From a virus, in the IMG/VR virus record IMGVR_UViG_3300044922_000409, positions 35,738 through 99,737 of that record: a stretch of DNA of 64,000 nucleotides. The stretch is one strand, 5' to 3'. Shown in pieces: positions 47,066-59,311 of this stretch; positions within the stretch are counted from its first letter, which is position 1, and every line of letters begins with the position of its first letter. The notes beneath the pieces are model-generated. The model saw nothing but the letters and a program-made list of their open reading frames with translations. It made no database searches and had not been told where the DNA came from. The position numbers and the translations under genes are program-made.

Positions 47066-47450
47066 CTTCTTCCTGTTTTGGGGTTAATAAATTACTAAGT
47101 AAAGTTTTAGTAACTTGTAAATTAGTTTCTACATCTGTAATTCTATTAGCTGCGCTTACAAACTGCGGACTTGCAGTAACATGTCCGACTATATGCGAAT
47201 TAAGAGTGTAATTTGTATATGGGTTTCGATTATACTCTTCAAGTGTGGTTAATCTTGATTCAAGTCCTTGCACACGTTGTTTTATGTATTCGTAATCAAC
47301 ATAAAACTGTTCAAATGGTCCTGGCATAGCATAAGATGGCATATCTAATTGCGCTAACATTGTTACTTTATCAAGAGATGACTTAACACTTTCATTTTGA
47401 TTAACATACACAACGTCTAATAATTTTAATGCTTTTCTAATATCTATCAT
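47034..47450 (-). CDS. Hypothetical coiled-coil protein, 138 residues
   Basis: Not recognised. Helical, with heptad-like stretches at about 55-75 (Y-I-K-Q-R-V-Q-G-L-E-S-R-L-T-T-L) and 100-125 (I-T-D-V-E-T-N-L-Q-V-T-K-T-L-L), ending in an acidic tail. The ATG overlaps the clamp stop by one base and its end overlaps dpdA by 32 bases, so it is expressed with the clamp and dpdA. Confidence 0.65.
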   Translation of the reverse strand: MIDIRKALKLLDVVYVNQNESVKSSLDKVTMLAQLDMPSYAMPGPFEQFYVDYEYIKQRVQGLESRLTTLEEYNRNPYTNYTLNSHIVGHVTASPQFVSAANRITDVETNLQVTKTLLSNLLTPKQEEDESELNSNAE

Positions 47451-48187
47451 TATTTTGTGTGTGCAGGTAATGTATAAGTGTATACTGCATTTCCGCTATC
47501 AACGATAATTTGTAACGAACCTTGATCAGATACTCGCATCTTAATATCACCGTTTAAATTTAAAATGCTTAGTACATGTGTAATTGGCCAAGACCATGTA
47601 TTTTTTAAATTAGCAGTGATTCCTGGATGAAATACGTATGATCCTGCATGTGTGCTAGCATCACCAAATCTAAATACTAAGTCATTATTAACAGTAGCTA
47701 ATTGAAATACAGTTTCTTCAGTATGAGCAGCAGCCTGATGTTTTAATCGTTGTATACTTACAATAGATGGACTAAATTCAATTTCGTATGTAATTTCTAC
47801 TTTAAGTTTAGGTCTTCTAACTTTGGCATTAATGATTTCTTGATTCATAAATCGATAATCATTTTCATAATCGCCAGTTTCATTAGAAAAGTGAAGTCCG
47901 GTTGGTAATTGTTCATCATCTCTAGTTTCGTAAACAACTTTAATATTTGCATCTTTTTTATATTCTGGACATTTAAGATGAAGATCTAATTTATTTAAGT
48001 TAGGCATTCCAAAAATACTTTCGCCTAATTCAGGAACAGGAGCATGTGTAGTTGCTAATAGCATTACTGATCTATCTTCAGCAATGGATTCGATAATAGC
48101 ATTGTTTGAGGTCGCAGTTACTTTAACTAATGGTAAAATGCTTAATGTATGTGTATGTGCTACTAAATCTTGTAAAAATGTTTTCAT
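47450..48187 (-). CDS. 45: DNA polymerase sliding clamp, gp45-like
   Basis: Ring-shaped processivity factor for the phage polymerase; in T4 it also activates late transcription with gp33 and gp55. 245 residues from the chosen ATG (T4 gp45 has 228). The beta-strand and loop pattern of gp45 can be followed: I-L-P-L-V-K-V-T-A-T-S-N-N-A-I-I-E-S-I, L-N-K-L-D-L-H-L-K-C-P, and a C-terminal V-L-S-I-L-N-L-N-G-D-I-K-M-R-V strand. It adjoins the DNA polymerase. The ATG at 48187 is chosen over an upstream TTG because AGGAG sits eight bases ahead and the TTG is part of the -35 box of the promoter. Confidence 0.82.
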   Translation of the reverse strand: MKTFLQDLVAHTHTLSILPLVKVTATSNNAIIESIAEDRSVMLLATTHAPVPELGESIFGMPNLNKLDLHLKCPEYKKDANIKVVYETRDDEQLPTGLHFSNETGDYENDYRFMNQEIINAKVRRPKLKVEITYEIEFSPSIVSIQRLKHQAAAHTEETVFQLATVNNDLVFRFGDASTHAGSYVFHPGITANLKNTWSWPITHVLSILNLNGDIKMRVSDQGSLQIIVDSGNAVYTYTLPAHTK

Positions 48188-48209
48188 ATAATGTCTCCTA
48201 GTTGTGTAT

Positions 48210-48238
48210 ATTATATTATAGTTGTGTTGTTTTGTCAA
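48210..48238 (-). promoter_or_regulatory. Sigma70-type promoter for the sliding clamp
   Basis: Minus strand TTGACA (48238-48233), 17-base spacer, TATAAT (48215-48210); a second overlapping TATAAT lies at 48220-48215 with a too-short spacer. The expected start near 48203 leaves a leader of about 16 bases with AGGAG. It lies just after the DNA polymerase stop. Confidence 0.88.
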
Positions 48239-51515: not shown

Positions 51516-51537
51516 AAAGGCAGATTAATCTGCCTTT
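51516..51537 (-). terminator. Intrinsic terminator of the minus-strand late cluster
   Basis: Perfect 22-base palindrome AAAGGCAGATT/AATCTGCCTTT, extended by a T run on the minus strand (TTTTTTT in total at the 3' side). It lies 18 bases after the stop of the PG-binding protein gene at 51556. Confidence 0.92.
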
Positions 51538-51555: not shown

Positions 51556-52422
51556 TTAGTGTGATAAACTTTGCATTTGTTGTTGTACATCAGCTACATG
51601 TTTTTGTACGTCCGGATCACTGGTTTGACTAACAGATGCTAACAGGCTATTTAATTTAGCCATAATCGCAGCTTCACTGTTGTCAAATTGTGTCATATCC
51701 GGTGCTGCAGGTGCAGATGGTGCTGTCGGTGCTGTTGATGCTGCCGCCGGTTCATCAGATGGTTGATGTGATCTAGTATGATCTGCAGGCGTAGCACCTC
51801 CGCCATCAATACCTAGGTATTTTGCTTTTGCTGCGCGAGTTAATGGTCCTTCTTTACCGTCAAGTTCTAAATTTGCACCAAATTCATCATTTAAGAATTT
51901 TTGCAATTTTTGAACTTTTGGATCGCCTGTAAAATTAGCTTCTGGTTTAGCATCAGTTCCTGGTTTAACTTCTGGTTTAACTTCTGGTTTAACTTCTGGT
52001 TTAACTTCTGGTTTAACTTCTGGTTTAACTTCTGAGTCGTCTGACCATGGCATTGTTGGCATCGATGGCATCGATGGCATTTTTCCTGTATCAAGTGCAT
52101 GCATACCTGCAGCACCTGCTCCTGCAATACCAGCAACTGAAGTACGTCCACCCCATTTAGCTGCTGCTTTATCTGCATCGCTAGCTGCATTCCATGCACT
52201 TGCTGCGCCTTTGGGCTCTTTAAAACCTAAACCTCGTGCATAATTAAGTGCAGCAATTCCTTTACTTGCTAGCGATTCATTAGCTATTGATTCCATGTGT
52301 TCTTTCAATGAAGAAGACGCATATGTAGGAGTAGTTATTTCTGCAGTATGTGACGGATTGTCAATTAATGCCAATCGATCGCGTAATAAAGCAATTGATT
52401 CTGTTAATGTAGTTGGTTTCAT
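51556..52422 (-). CDS. Peptidoglycan-binding-domain protein with VKPE repeats, probable virion protein
   Basis: 288 residues. N-terminus M-K-P-T-T-L-T-E-S fits a (L/I)-x-E prohead protease site (L-T-E then S). A Gly/Ala-rich helical region (about 65-115) is followed by P-S-M-P-S-M-P-T-M-P, then tandem V-K-P-E units (about 131-155). A PG_binding_1-type domain covers about 172-206 (L-Q-K-F-L-N-D-E-F-G, D-G-K-E-G-P-L-T-R-A-A). The C-terminus is Ala/Pro/Gln-rich. The same domain ends the upstream protein. Likely binds cell wall during entry or release (inference). No catalytic residues were recognised. Last gene before the terminator. Confidence 0.72.
   Translation of the reverse strand: MKPTTLTESIALLRDRLALIDNPSHTAEITTPTYASSSLKEHMESIANESLASKGIAALNYARGLGFKEPKGAASAWNAASDADKAAAKWGGRTSVAGIAGAGAAGMHALDTGKMPSMPSMPTMPWSDDSEVKPEVKPEVKPEVKPEVKPEVKPGTDAKPEANFTGDPKVQKLQKFLNDEFGANLELDGKEGPLTRAAKAKYLGIDGGGATPADHTRSHQPSDEPAAASTAPTAPSAPAAPDMTQFDNSEAAIMAKLNSLLASVSQTSDPDVQKHVADVQQQMQSLSH
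51961..52032 (-). repeat. 12-base tandem repeat (six copies)
   Basis: Six perfect copies of TGGTTTAACTTC (as read on the plus strand), which encode the V-K-P-E units. Perfect identity between copies points to recent slippage expansion, so copy number may vary among relatives. Confidence 0.95.
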
Positions 52423-53969
52423 ATTCTATTTTCTCGTATATAAGTTTTAATTGCTGCTCTAGTTAGCGGACCCATCTTGCCATCTGGCTCTAAATGTGCG
52501 CCTAGCGAATTTAAGTATTCTTGAAATTGTTTAACACCTAGTTTAGTTGCTGAAGTAGTCGCTGTATGCGCAGCAGGCACACTTGCAGCTGGTTTATCTA
52601 ACGGTGGCGGACTAGGCATTGCTGCAGTCGGAGGTGCAGCTTGAGGTGGTTTAATTGCTATATCTTTTTTACCCACATCTGACGGTTTTGCCGCAGTAGC
52701 TGGTAATTGTTGCGCACGAGCTTGATCCTTAGCTTTCTCCATATCTAATGTTCGACCGATATTTATTGCATCTAACCCTAATGATGCTGCAGTACCAATT
52801 CCGGGAACTAGCGATACTAAACCGGATGCTGCAGCAATACCTGAACCTAAATAATCACCTTCTTTTGCTCGATCATATGCATCATATGCACCATATGCTG
52901 CGCCTAAACCCGGGATGAGTTTAGAGCCAGCCTTTGCTAATGCAGCTTTTCCTACAGTAGGTGCAGCACTTTTTGTTGCAGAACCTGCTAATTTAGCCAT
53001 ATCTAGTGGGCTAGATTTTATAGCACTTTTTGCTGCAGCAGGTTTAAATTTGCTTGTGTCCATTGCGTTATACTTTGCATCGTTTACGCTCGCTGATGGC
53101 ATTGGACTAGATCCATCAGCGTACCCAAAAGCCTCTAATAGTGCATCTGCTACGCCGTTAAATGATTCATGCACTGCAGGTGTTGTAGGACGTGGAAGAT
53201 TTGCCATCATTGCATTTAATTGTGCCCCTTTGTTACCCATGCCTGCTGTTATATCTTTAAGTGACGAAGATGCTTGATTTAAGTAATTTGCAATATTAGG
53301 TGGCGGTGTATTTCCTGAATATTGGGTGCTATAGTTACCACTACCGTTAGCAGGAACAGGAACCCCATTAAACCCGGGCACTTTCATACCTTTAAGCATA
53401 TCAGGAACTTGTTGCATATTAAATCCAGGTGATTGCATATTGCCCTGACTTGCAAAATTAGGAGTAATTTGAGCTTGACCTGGTGTCTGTGACGTAACAG
53501 GTGCTGCACCTGCTGATGACATCGTAGCAGCAGCTCGTTTATTATGTAAATCAGTTAACTGTTTAAGTAACTCGTCAATTTGATGTAATTTATCAGCTAA
53601 TTCATTATGTTGTGTAGAAATAGCCGCACTTTGAGTTTTTAAGTTGGCATTAGCAGCATCGAACACTCTATTGTTATCGAACCAGCCTGCTTGTGGAAGT
53701 TTTGCATTTGGTGGAAGTAATCCAGCAGCTGATAATTTTTCAGCAACTTCAAATGGAACTTCATCATCTTCATCACCGTCTACATCAACAAAATTGCCAG
53801 TAACTGGATCAACTAATCCTTCAAGATTGTTATCTTTTGCTAGCTTTGCTAATAACGGTAATCGTACTTTATCGTCTTGTTCGTATCCAGTAGTAGCAGC
53901 TACTACTGCACTCAATGTTAAACCTTCATTTAACATATCTAGTTTATTCATTAATGTTCTAAAATCCAT
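52419..53969 (-). CDS. Virion-type protein with C-terminal peptidoglycan-binding domain
   Basis: 516 residues from the second of two adjacent ATGs, which has the better spacing to GGAGG. The N-terminus M-D-F-R-T-L-M-N-K-L-D-M-L-N-E-G has an (L/I)-x-E site (L-N-E then G). The middle is Pro/Gln/Asn/Met-rich. About 340-410 is a Gly/Ala hydrophobic segment (L-I-P-G-L-G-A-A-Y-G-A-Y and L-V-S-L-V-P-G-I-G-T-A) that could insert into a membrane. The C-terminal 40 residues (F-Q-E-Y-L-N-S-L-G-A, D-G-K-M-G-P-L-T-R-A-A) are a PG-binding domain like that of the next gene. A role in DNA entry or wall contact is plausible. Overlaps both neighbours. Confidence 0.7.
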   Translation of the reverse strand: MDFRTLMNKLDMLNEGLTLSAVVAATTGYEQDDKVRLPLLAKLAKDNNLEGLVDPVTGNFVDVDGDEDDEVPFEVAEKLSAAGLLPPNAKLPQAGWFDNNRVFDAANANLKTQSAAISTQHNELADKLHQIDELLKQLTDLHNKRAAATMSSAGAAPVTSQTPGQAQITPNFASQGNMQSPGFNMQQVPDMLKGMKVPGFNGVPVPANGSGNYSTQYSGNTPPPNIANYLNQASSSLKDITAGMGNKGAQLNAMMANLPRPTTPAVHESFNGVADALLEAFGYADGSSPMPSASVNDAKYNAMDTSKFKPAAAKSAIKSSPLDMAKLAGSATKSAAPTVGKAALAKAGSKLIPGLGAAYGAYDAYDRAKEGDYLGSGIAAASGLVSLVPGIGTAASLGLDAINIGRTLDMEKAKDQARAQQLPATAAKPSDVGKKDIAIKPPQAAPPTAAMPSPPPLDKPAASVPAAHTATTSATKLGVKQFQEYLNSLGAHLEPDGKMGPLTRAAIKTYIRENRI

Positions 53970-54558
53970 CATTTTCCTCCGGTGCCGGTTGATTAGGAAC
54001 TATTTCATCATAATCATGCATAGTTAATACATCTCCGGATTTACTTAATTCAATTAACCGCGAGGTAACATCATGTAAGTCCATGTCAGTTTGTGCATCT
54101 TCCCTAGCATATTCTAATATTCGAATTAATAACGGAATATCCATTGTTACTACATCTTTTGGGTTGTCTATAGATTCTACCGGACTACTATCCTGCATAC
54201 CAGGACCAGCGACTGATTTAAATCCTGGATTTAAATCAGCGGTTGCTACTGATTCTCCCATTATTTTGTATGCAATTTTACGAGCATACATATTTAGATC
54301 TACTTTTTTTGCATAGTATTCTTGCTCATGTTCTTCAGCAGCTTCGGCCATATATTGTTTAAGTAATGACGGTTTTGCAGGCTGTTTCTCATCTAGCTTA
54401 GTATAATGTTGCATAGCCATTTGAACAGGAAGTGCAACTTTATGTGGAGTAGAACCTTCGGTCACAATTGACATGAATTTCTTCATGTCATTTGCACTTT
54501 CTATAGGAGCAGATGTCTTAACAGAATCCATTGCCTGTAGAATCTTCTTCATATCCAT
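53959..54558 (-). CDS. Hypothetical late-cluster protein, 199 residues
   Basis: Not recognised. N-terminus M-D-M-K-K-I-L-Q-A-M-D resembles neighbours. Mostly helical, with a charged middle (K-Q-Y-M-A-E-A-A-E-E-H-E-Q-E-Y-Y) and an acidic end. D-M-P/M-D-I-P-L-L-I-R-I-L-E-Y-A-R-E-D-A (about 138-155) resembles a segment in T4-like head or core proteins, from memory. Overlaps the next gene by 11 bases. Probably a virion or prohead core component. Confidence 0.62.
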   Translation of the reverse strand: MDMKKILQAMDSVKTSAPIESANDMKKFMSIVTEGSTPHKVALPVQMAMQHYTKLDEKQPAKPSLLKQYMAEAAEEHEQEYYAKKVDLNMYARKIAYKIMGESVATADLNPGFKSVAGPGMQDSSPVESIDNPKDVVTMDIPLLIRILEYAREDAQTDMDLHDVTSRLIELSKSGDVLTMHDYDEIVPNQPAPEENDGF

Positions 54559-54560
54559 AA

Positions 54561-55820
54561 TTATCTAATTACTCGTGAAGTAATTTCTCTCAAACGGCTT
54601 AATTCAACTGATTCTTTAACTACTTCTTTTTCTTTAGAAGATTTAATAGCTTTATCAATCGAACCTTTGTGTTCTTCTTTACCCGATTCAATTTTGCCAT
54701 CACCGTCATAATCTTTATCAGCTTTTTCTTTAGCAGATTCTTTAATATTTTTCCACATTGCAGCAGCAGCAATTTTTTTACCTTTTTCCCCGCCACCTGC
54801 TTTAGAAGCTACTGTGTCAAAGTTTTTACCTGGTTTACCGATATCGCCACCTGCTTTAGCTTTTTTAACAACAGCTGATTTTTTCTCAGCTGACAGACCT
54901 GCACTTGGTTTTTTCTTAGCTTCGTAAACTGATTCGGTTTTAGATTTGCTAGCATATGGATTGCCTGTATCTTGACTATTAGTAGTTGATTTAGGTTTGC
55001 TGCATGAGTCTTCATCGACATCATCTTCTGGACGACGTCCGCCGGCTTGTTTACTTTTTACTTTATCTAATTCTTTTTTAAACGCATCGCCATTACCACT
55101 TTTCTTTTCGTCTTTTTTAGCAAATGGATTGCTACCTTTTTTATCAGCAACTGGACTTGGTTTTTTAACTGGAGTAATTGCTTCTTCTTCAAATTCTTCG
55201 TCGTCCGGAATACCGTTATTGTTTTTATCTAAACGTTTTGATGCAGCATGGTATGCTTTGGCTTGACGATTGTATTTTTCAACTTTTTGTTTTGTAGCTT
55301 CTGGAAGAGCTTTTTCAACCATACCGGAACCACCGCATTCGCCGCAGGTATGAGACATGCCTTCCTTAACTGTTTTAGTTTTGTCAAGTTTTTCAGCTTG
55401 ATCAATTTTAAGGGCAGCAAGGGTTTTCTTTGCTTCTAATAACGCATTTTTCATTTGTCTTTTTTGACTTTCTGAGTACATATCACTATTCTCTATCTTA
55501 TCGCCGTATTCACTGAATTTCATTTCGTATTCTAAATAATGGTAAACTGAAGAAATATAATCTGCAGCTTTGGTAATTTTTGCTTGTACCCAAGATTCGA
55601 ATTGGTCTTCATCTTCAATTTTTTTAAATAATTTAACGCTATATTTTGCTAACTTATATAAGTCAGCTTTAACCATTGCACCTTCATCATCGGCTTCGAT
55701 GTCGTGTGCGTCATGATGTAATTCGTTTGACGAAATATCAACGTTAGGTTCTGGTAAATCAAATTTTGGCAAATCTACTTCTAGATCTGCAAATTCTGAA
55801 AGATGTTTTCTGTTTTTCAT
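54561..55820 (-). CDS. Highly charged late-cluster protein with EF-hand-like loops, 419 residues
   Basis: Not assigned to a named family. Starts M-K-N-R-K-H-L-S-E-F, again with an (L/I)-x-E site. I chose the ATG at 55820 (CGGAG ahead) over an upstream Met that overlaps the neighbouring gene. Residues 50-150 are a helical domain with K-A-D-L-Y-K-L-A-K-Y-S and A-A-D-Y-I-S-S-V-Y-H-Y-L-E-Y, conserved in related phages. One C-x-x-C-x-G-x-G motif (about 158-165) may bind metal. Two EF-hand-like loops are visible: D-K-N-N-N-G-I-P-D-D-E-E and D-Y-D-G-D-G-K-I-E. The rest is Lys/Glu-rich, low complexity. Probably a scaffold/core or internal head protein. Confidence 0.65.
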   Translation of the reverse strand: MKNRKHLSEFADLEVDLPKFDLPEPNVDISSNELHHDAHDIEADDEGAMVKADLYKLAKYSVKLFKKIEDEDQFESWVQAKITKAADYISSVYHYLEYEMKFSEYGDKIENSDMYSESQKRQMKNALLEAKKTLAALKIDQAEKLDKTKTVKEGMSHTCGECGGSGMVEKALPEATKQKVEKYNRQAKAYHAASKRLDKNNNGIPDDEEFEEEAITPVKKPSPVADKKGSNPFAKKDEKKSGNGDAFKKELDKVKSKQAGGRRPEDDVDEDSCSKPKSTTNSQDTGNPYASKSKTESVYEAKKKPSAGLSAEKKSAVVKKAKAGGDIGKPGKNFDTVASKAGGGEKGKKIAAAAMWKNIKESAKEKADKDYDGDGKIESGKEEHKGSIDKAIKSSKEKEVVKESVELSRLREITSRVIR

Positions 55821-55842
55821 GGTAAACTCCGTTATAGTATAT

Positions 55843-56094
55843 TTAGCCTCTTTTAATACTTCCGCCGCCAAATAAGCTAACATTCATATTTAATGCATTA
55901 TCAGTTGGCTTTTGTTTTTTTGGTAACAGTTGCGGAGGTGCTTTAGTGCCACTTCCGGTGGCTACACTACCGGTGTATGATTTTTTTCCTCTAGCAGTTC
56001 CTGGACTTAAATGCGGGTTAACTACAGTTGCAATAGATGCAGCATTTGTTGCACCTGCTGATGCCATTTCTGATATAATTTCTCTAATTTTCAT
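55843..56094 (-). CDS. Small basic late-cluster protein, 83 residues
   Basis: Not recognised. M-K-I-R-E-I-I-S-E then M-A-S-A-G: a clear short leader with an (L/I)-x-E site. After it comes Ala/Thr-rich and then basic, Pro-rich sequence ending F-G-G-G-S-I-K-R-G. Size, basic nature and leader resemble T4 internal proteins. Overlaps the upstream gene by four bases. Confidence 0.62.
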   Translation of the reverse strand: MKIREIISEMASAGATNAASIATVVNPHLSPGTARGKKSYTGSVATGSGTKAPPQLLPKKQKPTDNALNMNVSLFGGGSIKRG

Positions 56095-56348
56095 AACTTG
56101 TTACCCCATAATTCAAACCATGCAGGAGTTCCAGGGCGAATGTTGTTTTCACGTTGATATTTGCCGCGCTCATCACTAAATGATTGTTGATTTTGTTGAG
56201 CTCGATATTCGTGTAATCTAGCATTAGAGCCTAACCCGCCTAAGTGATGTGCAATTTTTAATTCGTGTATTGGATCGTCACTCGCAAGAAAACAGTCGTT
56301 AGGACTGTCTTGTAGTATGTTTTCAGTTGTTATTCTATATTGTTTCAC
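56091..56348 (-). CDS. Hypothetical protein, 85 residues
   Basis: Not recognised. Starts M-K-Q-Y-R-I-T-T-E-N-I-L-Q-D-S and has a Gln/Arg/Glu-rich helical part (E-Y-R-A-Q-Q-N-Q-Q-S-F) followed by T-P-A-W-F-E-L-W-G. No typical leader cleavage site of the L/I-x-E kind at the expected spot. Sits three bases after its upstream neighbour. Confidence 0.58.
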   Translation of the reverse strand: MKQYRITTENILQDSPNDCFLASDDPIHELKIAHHLGGLGSNARLHEYRAQQNQQSFSDERGKYQRENNIRPGTPAWFELWGNKL

Positions 56349-56351
56349 AAT

Positions 56352-56762
56352 CTAAATTCCGTATTTGTTTCTTTTAACTTTAGCAACAGGACTGGATACG
56401 TGAGTATCAGTATGTTCGGTACTATCTTTTGAAGTTAGTTTTTTACTTTTTAATCCTAGATTCTTTTTGCTATTATCAATAATTTTCTGTTCAACATCAG
56501 TATATGCAAGCGTTGCCATTTGATTACCGATCGGTCCTGCTGGATCATATGGATGATGTTCTTTTGGTCCACCTGCCATGTCAACACCAAATCTATACAT
56601 TGTATAATATGAGTTTGGGTCAGTATATGTTTCCATACCTTTTATTGCTGAATGATACTGATCAAGAACATTGCTTGACTTAGATGGTCTTTTTGTAGCA
56701 GACCCTTGACCTGCATTATTGCCGCCATCATCAGCTTCGTTTAATAATTCGTTTATTCTCAT
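56352..56762 (-). CDS. Late-cluster protein, 136 residues, paralogue of its neighbour
   Basis: Starts M-R-I-N-E-L-L-N-E then A-D: leader with (L/I)-x-E site. The ATG at 56762 is used, as an upstream Met would read into the previous gene. The body shares Y-R-F-G-V-D-M-A-G, A-Y-T-D and the C-terminus V-A-K-V-K-R-N-K-Y-G-I with the next gene upstream, so the two arose by tandem duplication. Function unknown; probably virion. Confidence 0.68.
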   Translation of the reverse strand: MRINELLNEADDGGNNAGQGSATKRPSKSSNVLDQYHSAIKGMETYTDPNSYYTMYRFGVDMAGGPKEHHPYDPAGPIGNQMATLAYTDVEQKIIDNSKKNLGLKSKKLTSKDSTEHTDTHVSSPVAKVKRNKYGI

Positions 56763-56763
56763 A

Positions 56764-57168
56764 CTAAATCCCATACCTATTTCTTTTTACTTTAGCGGTA
56801 GGACTAGCTTTATGCACGTCTGATTGTTCAACTGACTTTTTAGAAGCAATTGATTTACTACTAATCCCCATTTGCTTTGCAGCAGCTTTCAATATGATTG
56901 CGTCGCCGTCAGTATACGACATTGTAATAAAATCCCCGCCATTTGGCCCAGATTTATCAGTTTTAGATTGAGGTGCACCTGCCATTGCAATACCAAATCT
57001 ATATGCGTTATATGGGTTATTATTGTTGTTTAACGCAGGCCATGCTTCTAAACCAGGGGCTGCATTAAGAGCGCCTTTTTGTAACTTACCCTCACGGATC
57101 ATAGTAGCTTGCATTTCATTTACTGCAATTTCTAATTCTAGTATATCTTCTTTTGTGTATCGTTTCAT
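56764..57168 (-). CDS. Late-cluster protein, 134 residues, paralogue of its neighbour
   Basis: M-K-R-Y-T-K-E-D-I-L-E-L start; body with Y-R-F-G-I-A-M-A-G, S-Y-T-D and T-A-K-V-K-R-N-R-Y-G-I end, matching the protein encoded downstream. Three bases separate it from the end of the nucleotidyltransferase fusion gene upstream. Function unknown. Confidence 0.68.
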   Translation of the reverse strand: MKRYTKEDILELEIAVNEMQATMIREGKLQKGALNAAPGLEAWPALNNNNNPYNAYRFGIAMAGAPQSKTDKSGPNGGDFITMSYTDGDAIILKAAAKQMGISSKSIASKKSVEQSDVHKASPTAKVKRNRYGI

Positions 57169-57171
57169 TAT

Positions 57172-58884
57172 TCATTCCGTTGTACATGTTAATCCCTCTC
57201 TAGTTGCTTGATATAATGTTTTACCAAATACTATGATATCATCAGTTACACCAGTTATTAGTTGGAAATTAAGTTTGTCACCTATTTTAGCATATTCGCG
57301 TGCTAACGTACCGCTAGCGTTATTAGTGGAATCAGTGCGATCTCCACTGCTAACAAATTTTAATACTACGTGTTCTCTACCATTCGGGCCTCGAGCATAA
57401 TCAGTAGTACGGGTAGGCCCGCTGTTCCAATTGTTAAGTGCAGCTTCTAAACTTCTACTTCCGGATCCTAATCTGTCACTACCTGCAACAAAAGTCATGT
57501 GTCGGTATCCTCTATCATACAACCAGCATGCAGCTTGCCATGGATCTCTAACATATTCAGTTACCATAAAATTAGAATAATCAGGATGAATCTTTTTGAT
57601 AAATTCAGTTTTAACTTCATAATCTAACGGATCACTCGATGGATCACATTTACTACTTGCAAATATGTACGCATGTTCTTTTCCAAGTTCTACAGTTTGT
57701 TGTATAACTTTTTTGTGGCCAATAGTAGGTGGATTCATTCTACCAAAACAAAAAGTTGCCATTGGCATTTTACTTTTTGTTTCAACCTCTTCAACTGATA
57801 CTGTATATTTAGAAAAGTTGGCGCGGCTAAATTCCAATCTATTAATAATTTTTAACTTGTTGTTACCCGCGCCTGTAACGTATCCTTCGTGACTTATATT
57901 ACTATTTATTATAGGTTGCACCGCACTGTATAGTTGTTGTTCATCAATTTGGTGTTTGATATCTAATTTAAGATTAGAAATAGCACTCCACATTTCCCAT
58001 AATCCTACTATACCTTTGTAAATATCTTTATGGAATTCTCCATTAGGATTGCATATTTTATTAATAACATTCTGTGTAAATCTTGGCTTAGCAAATTCTA
58101 TAAACCTAGGAACGATATTAGTCTCTAAATCTTCAGAGTTAATCATACTAGTAATAAATGGGCCTATTGCAGTAATTACGCTTTTACATTTAGTTGCTGT
58201 TAATTTAGCTATAAACGCGTCTACGTCGTTGCAATGTGCAGTAATTGCACTTTGCACAGCTTGTAATAATACGCTGTTTATAACAATATTTGGTTTGATA
58301 GTCATTTCAGTAGCGATAAACGTAATATCTTTACATTCTGAAAATCCATCAAAGCCGGTGATTGGCTCATCTTCTGCAGTCAAACCTGGGAAGAATGTAT
58401 GTACTGCAATACCGCCGACGCTGTTTGCAATTGATTTACCTAAGTCGCTATTATGCTTAACACGGTATTCAACTGTGTTAGGTTTAAAAACATATGAATT
58501 ATTAATGCTAGATGGCATCCCGGCCCATAACAAATCGCCCATGTAATAGGTATCAGTTACTGGTGGAATAATTTTTTCTAATGCAGGGAGTAAGATATCT
58601 TCTTTATCCCACAAGTCGCTACGAACAGTATTACGAGTATTGTCGTATTCTCTAATCGTAGAAAAGTTGAGTTTGCCAGCGGCAATTTGTTTGAACATGT
58701 GTTTGTCAACAAACACTAATTTACCATCTCTGTCTCGACCAAAAACTATAGCAGGAAATCCATCCCATTTAATAGTTAATGTGTTAGTGTTAAAAGAAAG
58801 ACTAGCTAGTTCATTAACTGCTCTGCGGGCTCCAGTTGATCCCTCGTTAATGATAAGATCTTCTGGGTGTGCAATTCCTGCCAT
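57172..58884 (-). CDS. Fusion of KxDG nucleotidyltransferase-like core and NMNAT-like domain
   Basis: 570 residues. The N-terminal part carries motifs of the covalent nucleotidyltransferase (DNA/RNA ligase) superfamily: I-K39-W-D-G42 (motif I), Y-M-G-D-L-L-W (about 114-120, motif III-like), H-E-G-Y-V (332-336, motif IV) and N-K-L-K-I (342-346, motif V). The C-terminal part (about 373-570) is an NMNAT/PPAT-type cytidylyltransferase: F-G-R-M-N-P-P-T-I-G-H390 (HxGH-type), V-A-G-S-D-R and A-S-G-T-L-A-R529 (SxTxxR-type). It would transfer AMP or CMP between a nucleotide and a second substrate. D-L-I-I-N-E-G near the start could be a prohead protease site. It lies among head-type genes, so it may travel in the virion. 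Substrates unknown. Confidence 0.72.
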   Translation of the reverse strand: MAGIAHPEDLIINEGSTGARRAVNELASLSFNTNTLTIKWDGFPAIVFGRDRDGKLVFVDKHMFKQIAAGKLNFSTIREYDNTRNTVRSDLWDKEDILLPALEKIIPPVTDTYYMGDLLWAGMPSSINNSYVFKPNTVEYRVKHNSDLGKSIANSVGGIAVHTFFPGLTAEDEPITGFDGFSECKDITFIATEMTIKPNIVINSVLLQAVQSAITAHCNDVDAFIAKLTATKCKSVITAIGPFITSMINSEDLETNIVPRFIEFAKPRFTQNVINKICNPNGEFHKDIYKGIVGLWEMWSAISNLKLDIKHQIDEQQLYSAVQPIINSNISHEGYVTGAGNNKLKIINRLEFSRANFSKYTVSVEEVETKSKMPMATFCFGRMNPPTIGHKKVIQQTVELGKEHAYIFASSKCDPSSDPLDYEVKTEFIKKIHPDYSNFMVTEYVRDPWQAACWLYDRGYRHMTFVAGSDRLGSGSRSLEAALNNWNSGPTRTTDYARGPNGREHVVLKFVSSGDRTDSTNNASGTLAREYAKIGDKLNFQLITGVTDDIIVFGKTLYQATREGLTCTTE

Positions 58885-58905
58885 ATTGGTACCTATATAA
58901 AAATG

Positions 58906-59280
58906 TTAAGTGTGATCGTAACTACCATCTTTCATATCGTTAGCTACATTGTCGTATATTTTTTTACAAACATCTTTCCAAACTTTAGGATCTAACTTAT
59001 CTGGTAATTCACGAATTGGATATTCTTTAGTATAACATTTATATCCAGCTGCAACTGCAGATTTAAAAATAGAACATGTAGTATCTTCATCTGCATTTAG
59101 CATATCTATGTATTTCATGATAGCAGGATGCAAATATTTACGATATACATCGTCGTCGTTGTTGAGATAAAATATTAAATCATCAGCTAGGTCAAAATCA
59201 ATTTCATTGCCATCGTCAGAGGGTTTAATAAATTCTTCACTGTTAAAGTGGGCACTTTCAAGTAATTCAGTAATACGCAT
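58906..59280 (-). CDS. Acidic late-cluster protein, 124 residues
   Basis: Not recognised. Starts M-R-I-T-E-L-L-E then S-A-H-F: a leader of the same type as other cluster proteins. The body is acidic (D-F-D-L-A-D-D-L-I-F-Y-L-N-N-D-D-D) and helical, ending C-K-K-I-Y-D-N-V-A-N-D-M-K. A late promoter-like CATAAATA lies 24 bases upstream. First gene of the cluster that ends at the 51516-51537 terminator. Confidence 0.68.
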   Translation of the reverse strand: MRITELLESAHFNSEEFIKPSDDGNEIDFDLADDLIFYLNNDDDVYRKYLHPAIMKYIDMLNADEDTTCSIFKSAVAAGYKCYTKEYPIRELPDKLDPKVWKDVCKKIYDNVANDMKDGSYDHT

Positions 59281-59303
59281 AATTAAATTCCGGGTTATTA
59301 CTA

Positions 59304-59311
59304 TATTTATG
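59304..59311 (-). promoter_or_regulatory. Late promoter-like motif ahead of the minus-strand late cluster
   Basis: Minus strand CATAAATA (59311-59304) in the 32-base gap before the cluster's first gene; 7 of 8 match to TATAAATA. Confidence 0.5.

Follow-up and report, generated by a model that had tools for sequence, protein, structure and literature searches.

In bacteriophage T4, capsid-targeting sequences (CTSs) are propeptides of 10–19 residues, and the first 10 residues of IPIII suffice for incorporation (PMC9026906). The leader of a T4 internal protein alone loads foreign proteins into the core; targeting and processing depend on different leader residues, and an Asp where the cut is made stops processing while targeting is unaffected (PMC9026906). 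The injected T4 proteins Ip1, Ip2, and Ip3 block host type IV restriction enzymes (PMC12373910). The jumbo phages SPN3US and phiKZ package numerous proteins, with N-terminal propeptides that are cleaved off behind a motif ending in Glu (PMC10052503), most of the SPN3US propeptides being 111–254 residues long; their protease is described as a diverged gp21 homolog (PMC9026906). Here, we describe a gene cluster at positions 51556–59280 of a 64,000-nucleotide stretch (the window), which corresponds to bases 35738–99737 of the virus record IMGVR_UViG_3300044922_000409 (99,737 bases). Genes are named by their lower coordinate in the window, and a slash marks a predicted cut.

Most products of this cluster appear to start with a T4-style CTS, and they probably represent head cargo that is made from one late unit, packaged, cleaved, and ejected. 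The phage encodes a gp21-type protease, the leaders look like those of T4 gp24, ipII, and ipIII, their sites are retained among relatives, and expression of the unit is apparently late; together, these points give the CTS reading good support for several leaders, and support for 56764 at a corrected site. Leaders of about 6–20 residues ending in (L/I)xE open the genes 58906, 56352, 55843, 54561, 52419, and 51556; in 56764 the site lies at residue 26, and 57172 and 56091 have no acceptable leader. As expected of T4-type cargo, the motif is shared by unrelated proteins. Like T4 ipII and ipIII (MKTYQEFIAE), the cluster proteins have a short leader of the form M-K-..-E-hydrophobic-hydrophobic-x-E, although it is mostly nine rather than ten residues long, with E at position 5. 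As with T4 ipI, ipII, and ipIII, small proteins occur in the same phage as a T4-type protease, core, and head; however, no similarity of the mature cluster proteins to them was found (no family match). The leader of 56352, MRINELLNE/A, is close to that of the T4 capsid vertex protein gp24, MAKINELLRE/S; however, gp24 is a shell protein, and 56352 has no detectable similarity to capsid proteins.

The window is part of an incomplete genome of a jumbo, T4-related phage with gp20/21/22/23-type head genes. The cluster has close relatives in IMG/VR, including two in contigs of 372 kb, and the nearest isolates by the scaffold protein are PA5oct-type jumbo phages (Arenbergviridae), with 40% identity. 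The T4-type head module lies on the minus strand of the same record, outside the window (Table 1), and the record encodes the gp21-type prohead protease that T4-type CTS cargo would call for. A conserved N-terminal LxE is also found on the gp22-, gp68-, and gp23-like proteins of this phage, and the probable gp23 site YLIE/SPTAGATSAG aligns by eye with FLVE/NASAGATQAG of PA5oct. A candidate gp55-like late sigma factor, recognised by eye only, is located at L003:13173-14012.

Each gene was aligned with its distinct relatives, and retention of [LIVM]xE at the aligned site was scored. The earlier note on this DNA had listed shared leaders ending in (L/I)-x-E. All of the quoted N-terminal sequences exist, the one at 55820 only via the internal start M22 of the open reading frame (ORF) 54561-55883; an ACGGAG resembling a ribosome-binding site (RBS) lies 5' of M22, and some relatives begin there. 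The site is kept in the leaders listed at 59280, 56762, 56094, 55820, 53969, and 52422. The listed leader at 58884 did not hold, and neither did that at 57168 in the form proposed: the KEDILE site was rejected, ILE being kept in 10/14 relatives versus 14/14 for IRE/G at residue 26. By eye, the latter Glu of this protein (paralog B) lines up with the point where the leader ends in distant family members such as MKIREIIEE/GKLR and MKINEIVTE/AKLRKG. For 56352, the second Met of ORF 56352-56774 was taken as the start. Alignment of 56091 with its relatives revealed no N-terminal LxE before residue 29, and in 53959, which is absent from the earlier list, the entire N-terminus is conserved and not just the candidate site.

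The sites tolerate length changes in front of them. One relative of 55843 has a four-residue insertion before the site, and most relatives of 52419 have a five-residue insertion; in both, the site still adjoins the next conserved block. A single conserved [LI]xE site is not decisive, since internal [LI]xE sites of the cluster and neighbouring proteins are often kept too (mean retention 61%, with 36% of sites kept at >=90%). The weight is carried by the common form and position of the leaders, judged from sequence, and not by any lone site.

Table 1. Coordinates of the late unit and the head module, with predicted leaders and retention of the site among relatives (aa, amino acids; PG, peptidoglycan)
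Feature	Position	Strand	Leader	Retention or other evidence
Late promoter motif CATAAATAT	59303..59311	minus		31 bp 5' of the ATG of gene 58906-59280
124-aa protein	58906..59280	minus	MRITELLE/S (codons 59257..59280)	LLE kept 13/13
Fusion of DUF6267 and HxGH nucleotidyltransferase, unit member	57172..58884	minus	none supported	PF19782 E=1.2e-35; phrog_3041
134-aa YRFG-family protein (paralog B)	56764..57168	minus	probable, residues 1-26, MIRE/GK (codons 57091..57168)	14/14
136-aa YRFG-family protein (paralog A)	56352..56762	minus	MRINELLNE/A (codons 56736..56762)	6/6
85-aa protein	56091..56348	minus	none recognised	conserved N-terminus VKQYRITTENILQD
83-aa protein	55843..56094	minus	MKIREIISE/MASAG (codons 56068..56094)	9/9
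419-aa charged protein	54561..55820	minus	MKNRKHLSE/FA (codons 55794..55820)	11/11
199-aa protein	53959..54558	minus	weaker candidate site IVTE/GS at residue 34	9/9 aligned relatives
517-aa protein, C-terminal PG_binding_1	52419..53972	minus	...DMLNE/GLTLS	10/10; PF01471 E=2.6e-5
288-aa protein, PG-binding-like segment and VKPE repeats	51556..52422	minus	MKPTTLTE/S	2/2 (one is VAE)
Intrinsic terminator closing the unit, after 51556	51516..51537	minus		9-bp stem, then T run
Portal	head module	minus		phrog_213
gp67-like protein, 79 aa	head module	minus		named by gene order and PA5oct homologs
gp68-like acidic protein, 276 aa	head module	minus		named by gene order and PA5oct homologs
gp21-type protease	L002:15387-16013			phrog_207; T4 gp21 structure PDB 5jbl E=2.9e-15
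Scaffold	head module	minus		phrog_10922 (function-less there); name from PA5oct-type homologs and position
Major head protein	head module	minus		phrog_138

The leader pattern is concentrated at protein starts. The expression M[KR]x(1-3)[ED][ILVF][ILVM]xE was applied to three jumbo genomes (G000, G001, and G002), in which genes were called by a simple ORF heuristic; it matched 18 of 1153 called N-termini versus 1 of 3896 internal methionines (Fisher p=4e-11). Among 165 ORFs from 100 kb of T4, there were exactly two matches, ipII and ipIII, both internal head proteins, and none of 578 internal methionines matched; the expression misses T4 ipI and Alt. In orthologs from the three genomes, a conserved N-terminal [LI]xE is present in 5/8 cluster genes, a count that includes 57172 and 56091, neither accepted as leader-bearing, versus 12/70 other genes (p=0.011), and four of those twelve encode head proteins of this phage.

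In the 372-kb relatives, leaders were found on endonuclease VII-like, DUF4116-repeat, and weakly kinase-like or metallopeptidase-like proteins, which looks like a scattered repertoire and not a single cluster. One of these genomes, G002, encodes consecutive large proteins (L045:15465-17840 and L046:145-5711), three with DUF4116 matches and all with leader-like starts (MRLRELYTTLILE, MRFNEFKILLE, and MFLRELYENLLLFE). At L003:6196-7113, a late-type promoter motif and a leader of variable length precede a protein whose hydrophobic segments are probably membrane segments; in its relatives, the leader end may be LNE/A or LYE/A.

The genes 56352 and 56764 are paralogs with a common core containing YRFG and SPVAxxKRNKYG and, judged by sequence searches, they represent a new, so far nameless family. 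The window's members have no Pfam or PHROGs match, and no enzyme domain was found in them; the family's proteins are small, with a basic C-terminus. A profile-guided scan revealed 316 relatives in viral contigs, and searches of 50,697 phage records with four different members as queries found nothing; no isolate phage with the family was found. The loci retrieved gave 64 distinct N-termini, with starts picked by a simple RBS rule, and some leader misses may therefore be wrong starts. The strict pattern M[KR]xxE[ILVF][ILVF]xE occurs on 31 of them (mean 0.0115 in shuffles of the first residues), and any [LIVF]xE near the N-terminus on 50 (mean 17.7 in shuffles). The gp21-type protease (PF03420) was found on all five tested contigs of >200 kb with distant family members and was absent from five smaller tested contigs, possibly fragments.

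A conserved promoter motif, a terminator, and a separate sigma-70 promoter of the next gene support the assignment of the genes from 59280 down to 51556 to one late transcription unit, and the first two, as features of sequence, argue for late expression of the cluster. The late promoter motif and terminator reported in the earlier note are indeed present. A TATAAATA-type motif is kept at this promoter place in relatives (12 distinct upstream sequences, including that of the window); the window itself has CATAAATAT, relatives mostly have GTATAAATATA, and exact TATAAATA is found before 59280 in most relatives only. No exact octamer TATAAATA occurs on the coding strand within the cluster. The octamer is depleted across the whole window (3 versus 15.5 expected), which would fit its avoidance anywhere but at genuine late promoters. 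Because of this under-representation, it was dropped as a search motif, and the degenerate NATAAATAY was used; in the 372-kb relatives, this motif lies within -80 to -10 of 51/92 same-strand genes in G001 and 36/61 in G002, versus about 5% expected. Beyond the terminator, the next gene has a consensus sigma-70 promoter to itself (51490-51462). This is one of four sigma-70 promoters on the minus strand of the window that are perfect (12/12), the others being at 63175-63147, 62272-62245, and 48238-48210. They are found just past the late unit, ahead of the DnaJ and Clp genes, and ahead of gene 47450-48238, and the late unit itself contains none of them.

The fusion 57172-58884 belongs to the unit and lacks a conserved leader distinct from the mature domain. 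Its proposed leader LIINEG fails because the segment (HPEDLIINEGS) falls inside the Pfam domain DUF6267, from profile position 5 onward, and its Glu is not conserved, 2/16 relatives having D or N in place of E14; in cyanophage homologs, the segment is HLEHLEDDIFNQGYAG or similar and lacks LxE. The DUF6267 part (residues 35–350) carries KWDG, EG, and KxK motifs like those of nucleotide-binding ligases, and K39-W-D-G, E333-G, and K343-x-K345 are invariant in 14 close relatives. These motifs suggest a ligase-like fold, and the protein could be a covalent nucleotidyltransferase joined to an HxGH nucleotidyltransferase. A sequence search of the PDB found no relative of the fusion. The predicted folds were left unused, since AlphaFold confidence was low (predicted local distance difference test, pLDDT, 49 for the fusion and 50 for paralog B); Foldseek with the low-confidence fusion model gave weak matches, with no ligase among the matches listed. 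In the cyanophages S-WAM1 (L171:2673-3728) and S-SSM2 (L169:2435-3613), the protein encoded beside DUF6267 starts with a leader-like MRFRQFIIE/A or MKKFSTFISE/A, and in S-WAM1 this protein is annotated as "cytitidyltransferase". The observation in the earlier note is partly confirmed and, for the most part, right. Its interpretation as packaged T4-type cargo, which had included the fusion, is partly supported: it has support for several leaders and for 56764, and not for the fusion.

The two wall-binding-domain proteins named in the same note differ in standing: PG_binding_1 in 52419 is supported by Pfam, and 51556 qualifies only as a BLASTP relative of it (56% identity over 34 aa of the PG-binding domain). 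The 419-aa protein 54561-55820 contains a CxxCxGSG segment and two DxDxNG-like acidic loops; its match to the Excalibur calcium-binding domain is weak (E=0.004). PADLOC had no match for eight cluster or leader-bearing proteins.

Several points weigh against head cargo. Unlike the packaging of T4 internal proteins, that of this phage's putative cargo is a prediction from sequence. The leader expression was written after these leaders had been seen, T4 being its sole independent check, and strict-leader genes are not enriched for directly upstream late promoters (3/18, p=0.15). As (L/I)xE is common, 54561, 51556, and 53959 rest on conservation in few or very similar sequences. Records of PA5oct, a phage distant from this one, carry labels of proteins detected by electrospray ionisation tandem mass spectrometry (MS), and the leader genes there are weakly enriched among the MS-detected ones (2/91 versus 1/387, p=0.09); moreover, phmmer (E up to 10) detected a PA5oct counterpart for just one part of the cluster's products, the fusion's nucleotidyltransferase domain. 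Two MS-detected PA5oct proteins do have a strict leader, EST35_0150 (MKINDIITE/G) and EST35_0238 (MKIKDILVE/S), and a looser pattern gives 3/91 versus 2/387 (p=0.05). With enrichment at this borderline, the PA5oct labels were rejected as proof of packaging. The PA5oct genes at the same place, from ClpA to DNA polymerase, are mostly MS-detected; this block is not direct support, because only the nucleotidyltransferase domain has a counterpart there, and the stand-alone PA5oct nucleotidyltransferase (190 aa) is not among the MS-detected proteins.

A possible, though doubtful, alternative is that the leaders do target the prohead core, and the proteins are assembly or core components cut in maturation rather than delivered effectors. 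T4 gp24 has the same kind of leader, T4 gp22 also begins with an LIAE site, the head proteins of this phage likewise have a conserved N-terminal LxE, and the YRFG proteins, small, basic at the C-terminus, and without a found enzyme domain, would suit such a role. However, the leader proteins elsewhere in relatives are accessory-like (endonuclease VII-like, weakly kinase-like, and DUF4116), which fits cargo better than core. It is quite unlikely that the leaders are ordinary N-terminal amphipathic helices, acting as oligomerisation or degradation signals, with an incidental (L/I)xE. This would agree with the frequency of [LI]xE in proteins and its retention at internal sites; nevertheless, one nine-residue pattern opens unrelated proteins, survives insertions and deletions, and is nearly absent at internal methionines, and in the T4 sequence searched it marks internal proteins only. 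A tail or lysis module, whose PG-binding proteins would engage the cell wall either from the tail or during lysis, is also unlikely. Two proteins have PG-binding-type domains, a hydrophobic glycine-rich stretch of 52419 resembles parts of endolysin and peptidase families, and tail genes take up much of the window; against this, both PG-binding proteins have conserved leader-like N-termini, and a domain search found no catalytic domain in 52419 or its longer relatives.

If head cargo is the correct reading, targeting, cleavage, and ejection would proceed as in T4, from which we infer them. A leader of 8–26 residues, typically M-[K/R]-I-x-E-[I/L]-[I/L]-x-E, would bind the scaffold core (gp22/67/68-type) during prohead formation, and because of this binding the protein would be trapped inside the prohead. 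The gp21-type protease would then cut after the glutamate of (L/I)-x-E in maturation, and the cargo would exit with the DNA upon infection. The nucleotidyltransferase fusion would be part of the unit without a supported leader.

The wider leader pattern in jumbo phages is worth testing. We consider the chances evenly balanced that, in many jumbo T4-related phages, M-[KR]-[IA]-x-E-[ILF]-[IVL]-x-E acts as a transferable address for head loading; a simple N-terminal search would then read out their injected proteins, among them kinase-like, endonuclease VII-like, and DUF4116-repeat proteins and the YRFG family. If the leader is a head-loading tag, the injected proteins of jumbo phages would be predictable from sequence, and so would the new N-terminus of each. 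The T4 capsid-targeting principle would then extend to phages of 200–370 kb, and more candidate counter-defence and host-takeover proteins would come into view.

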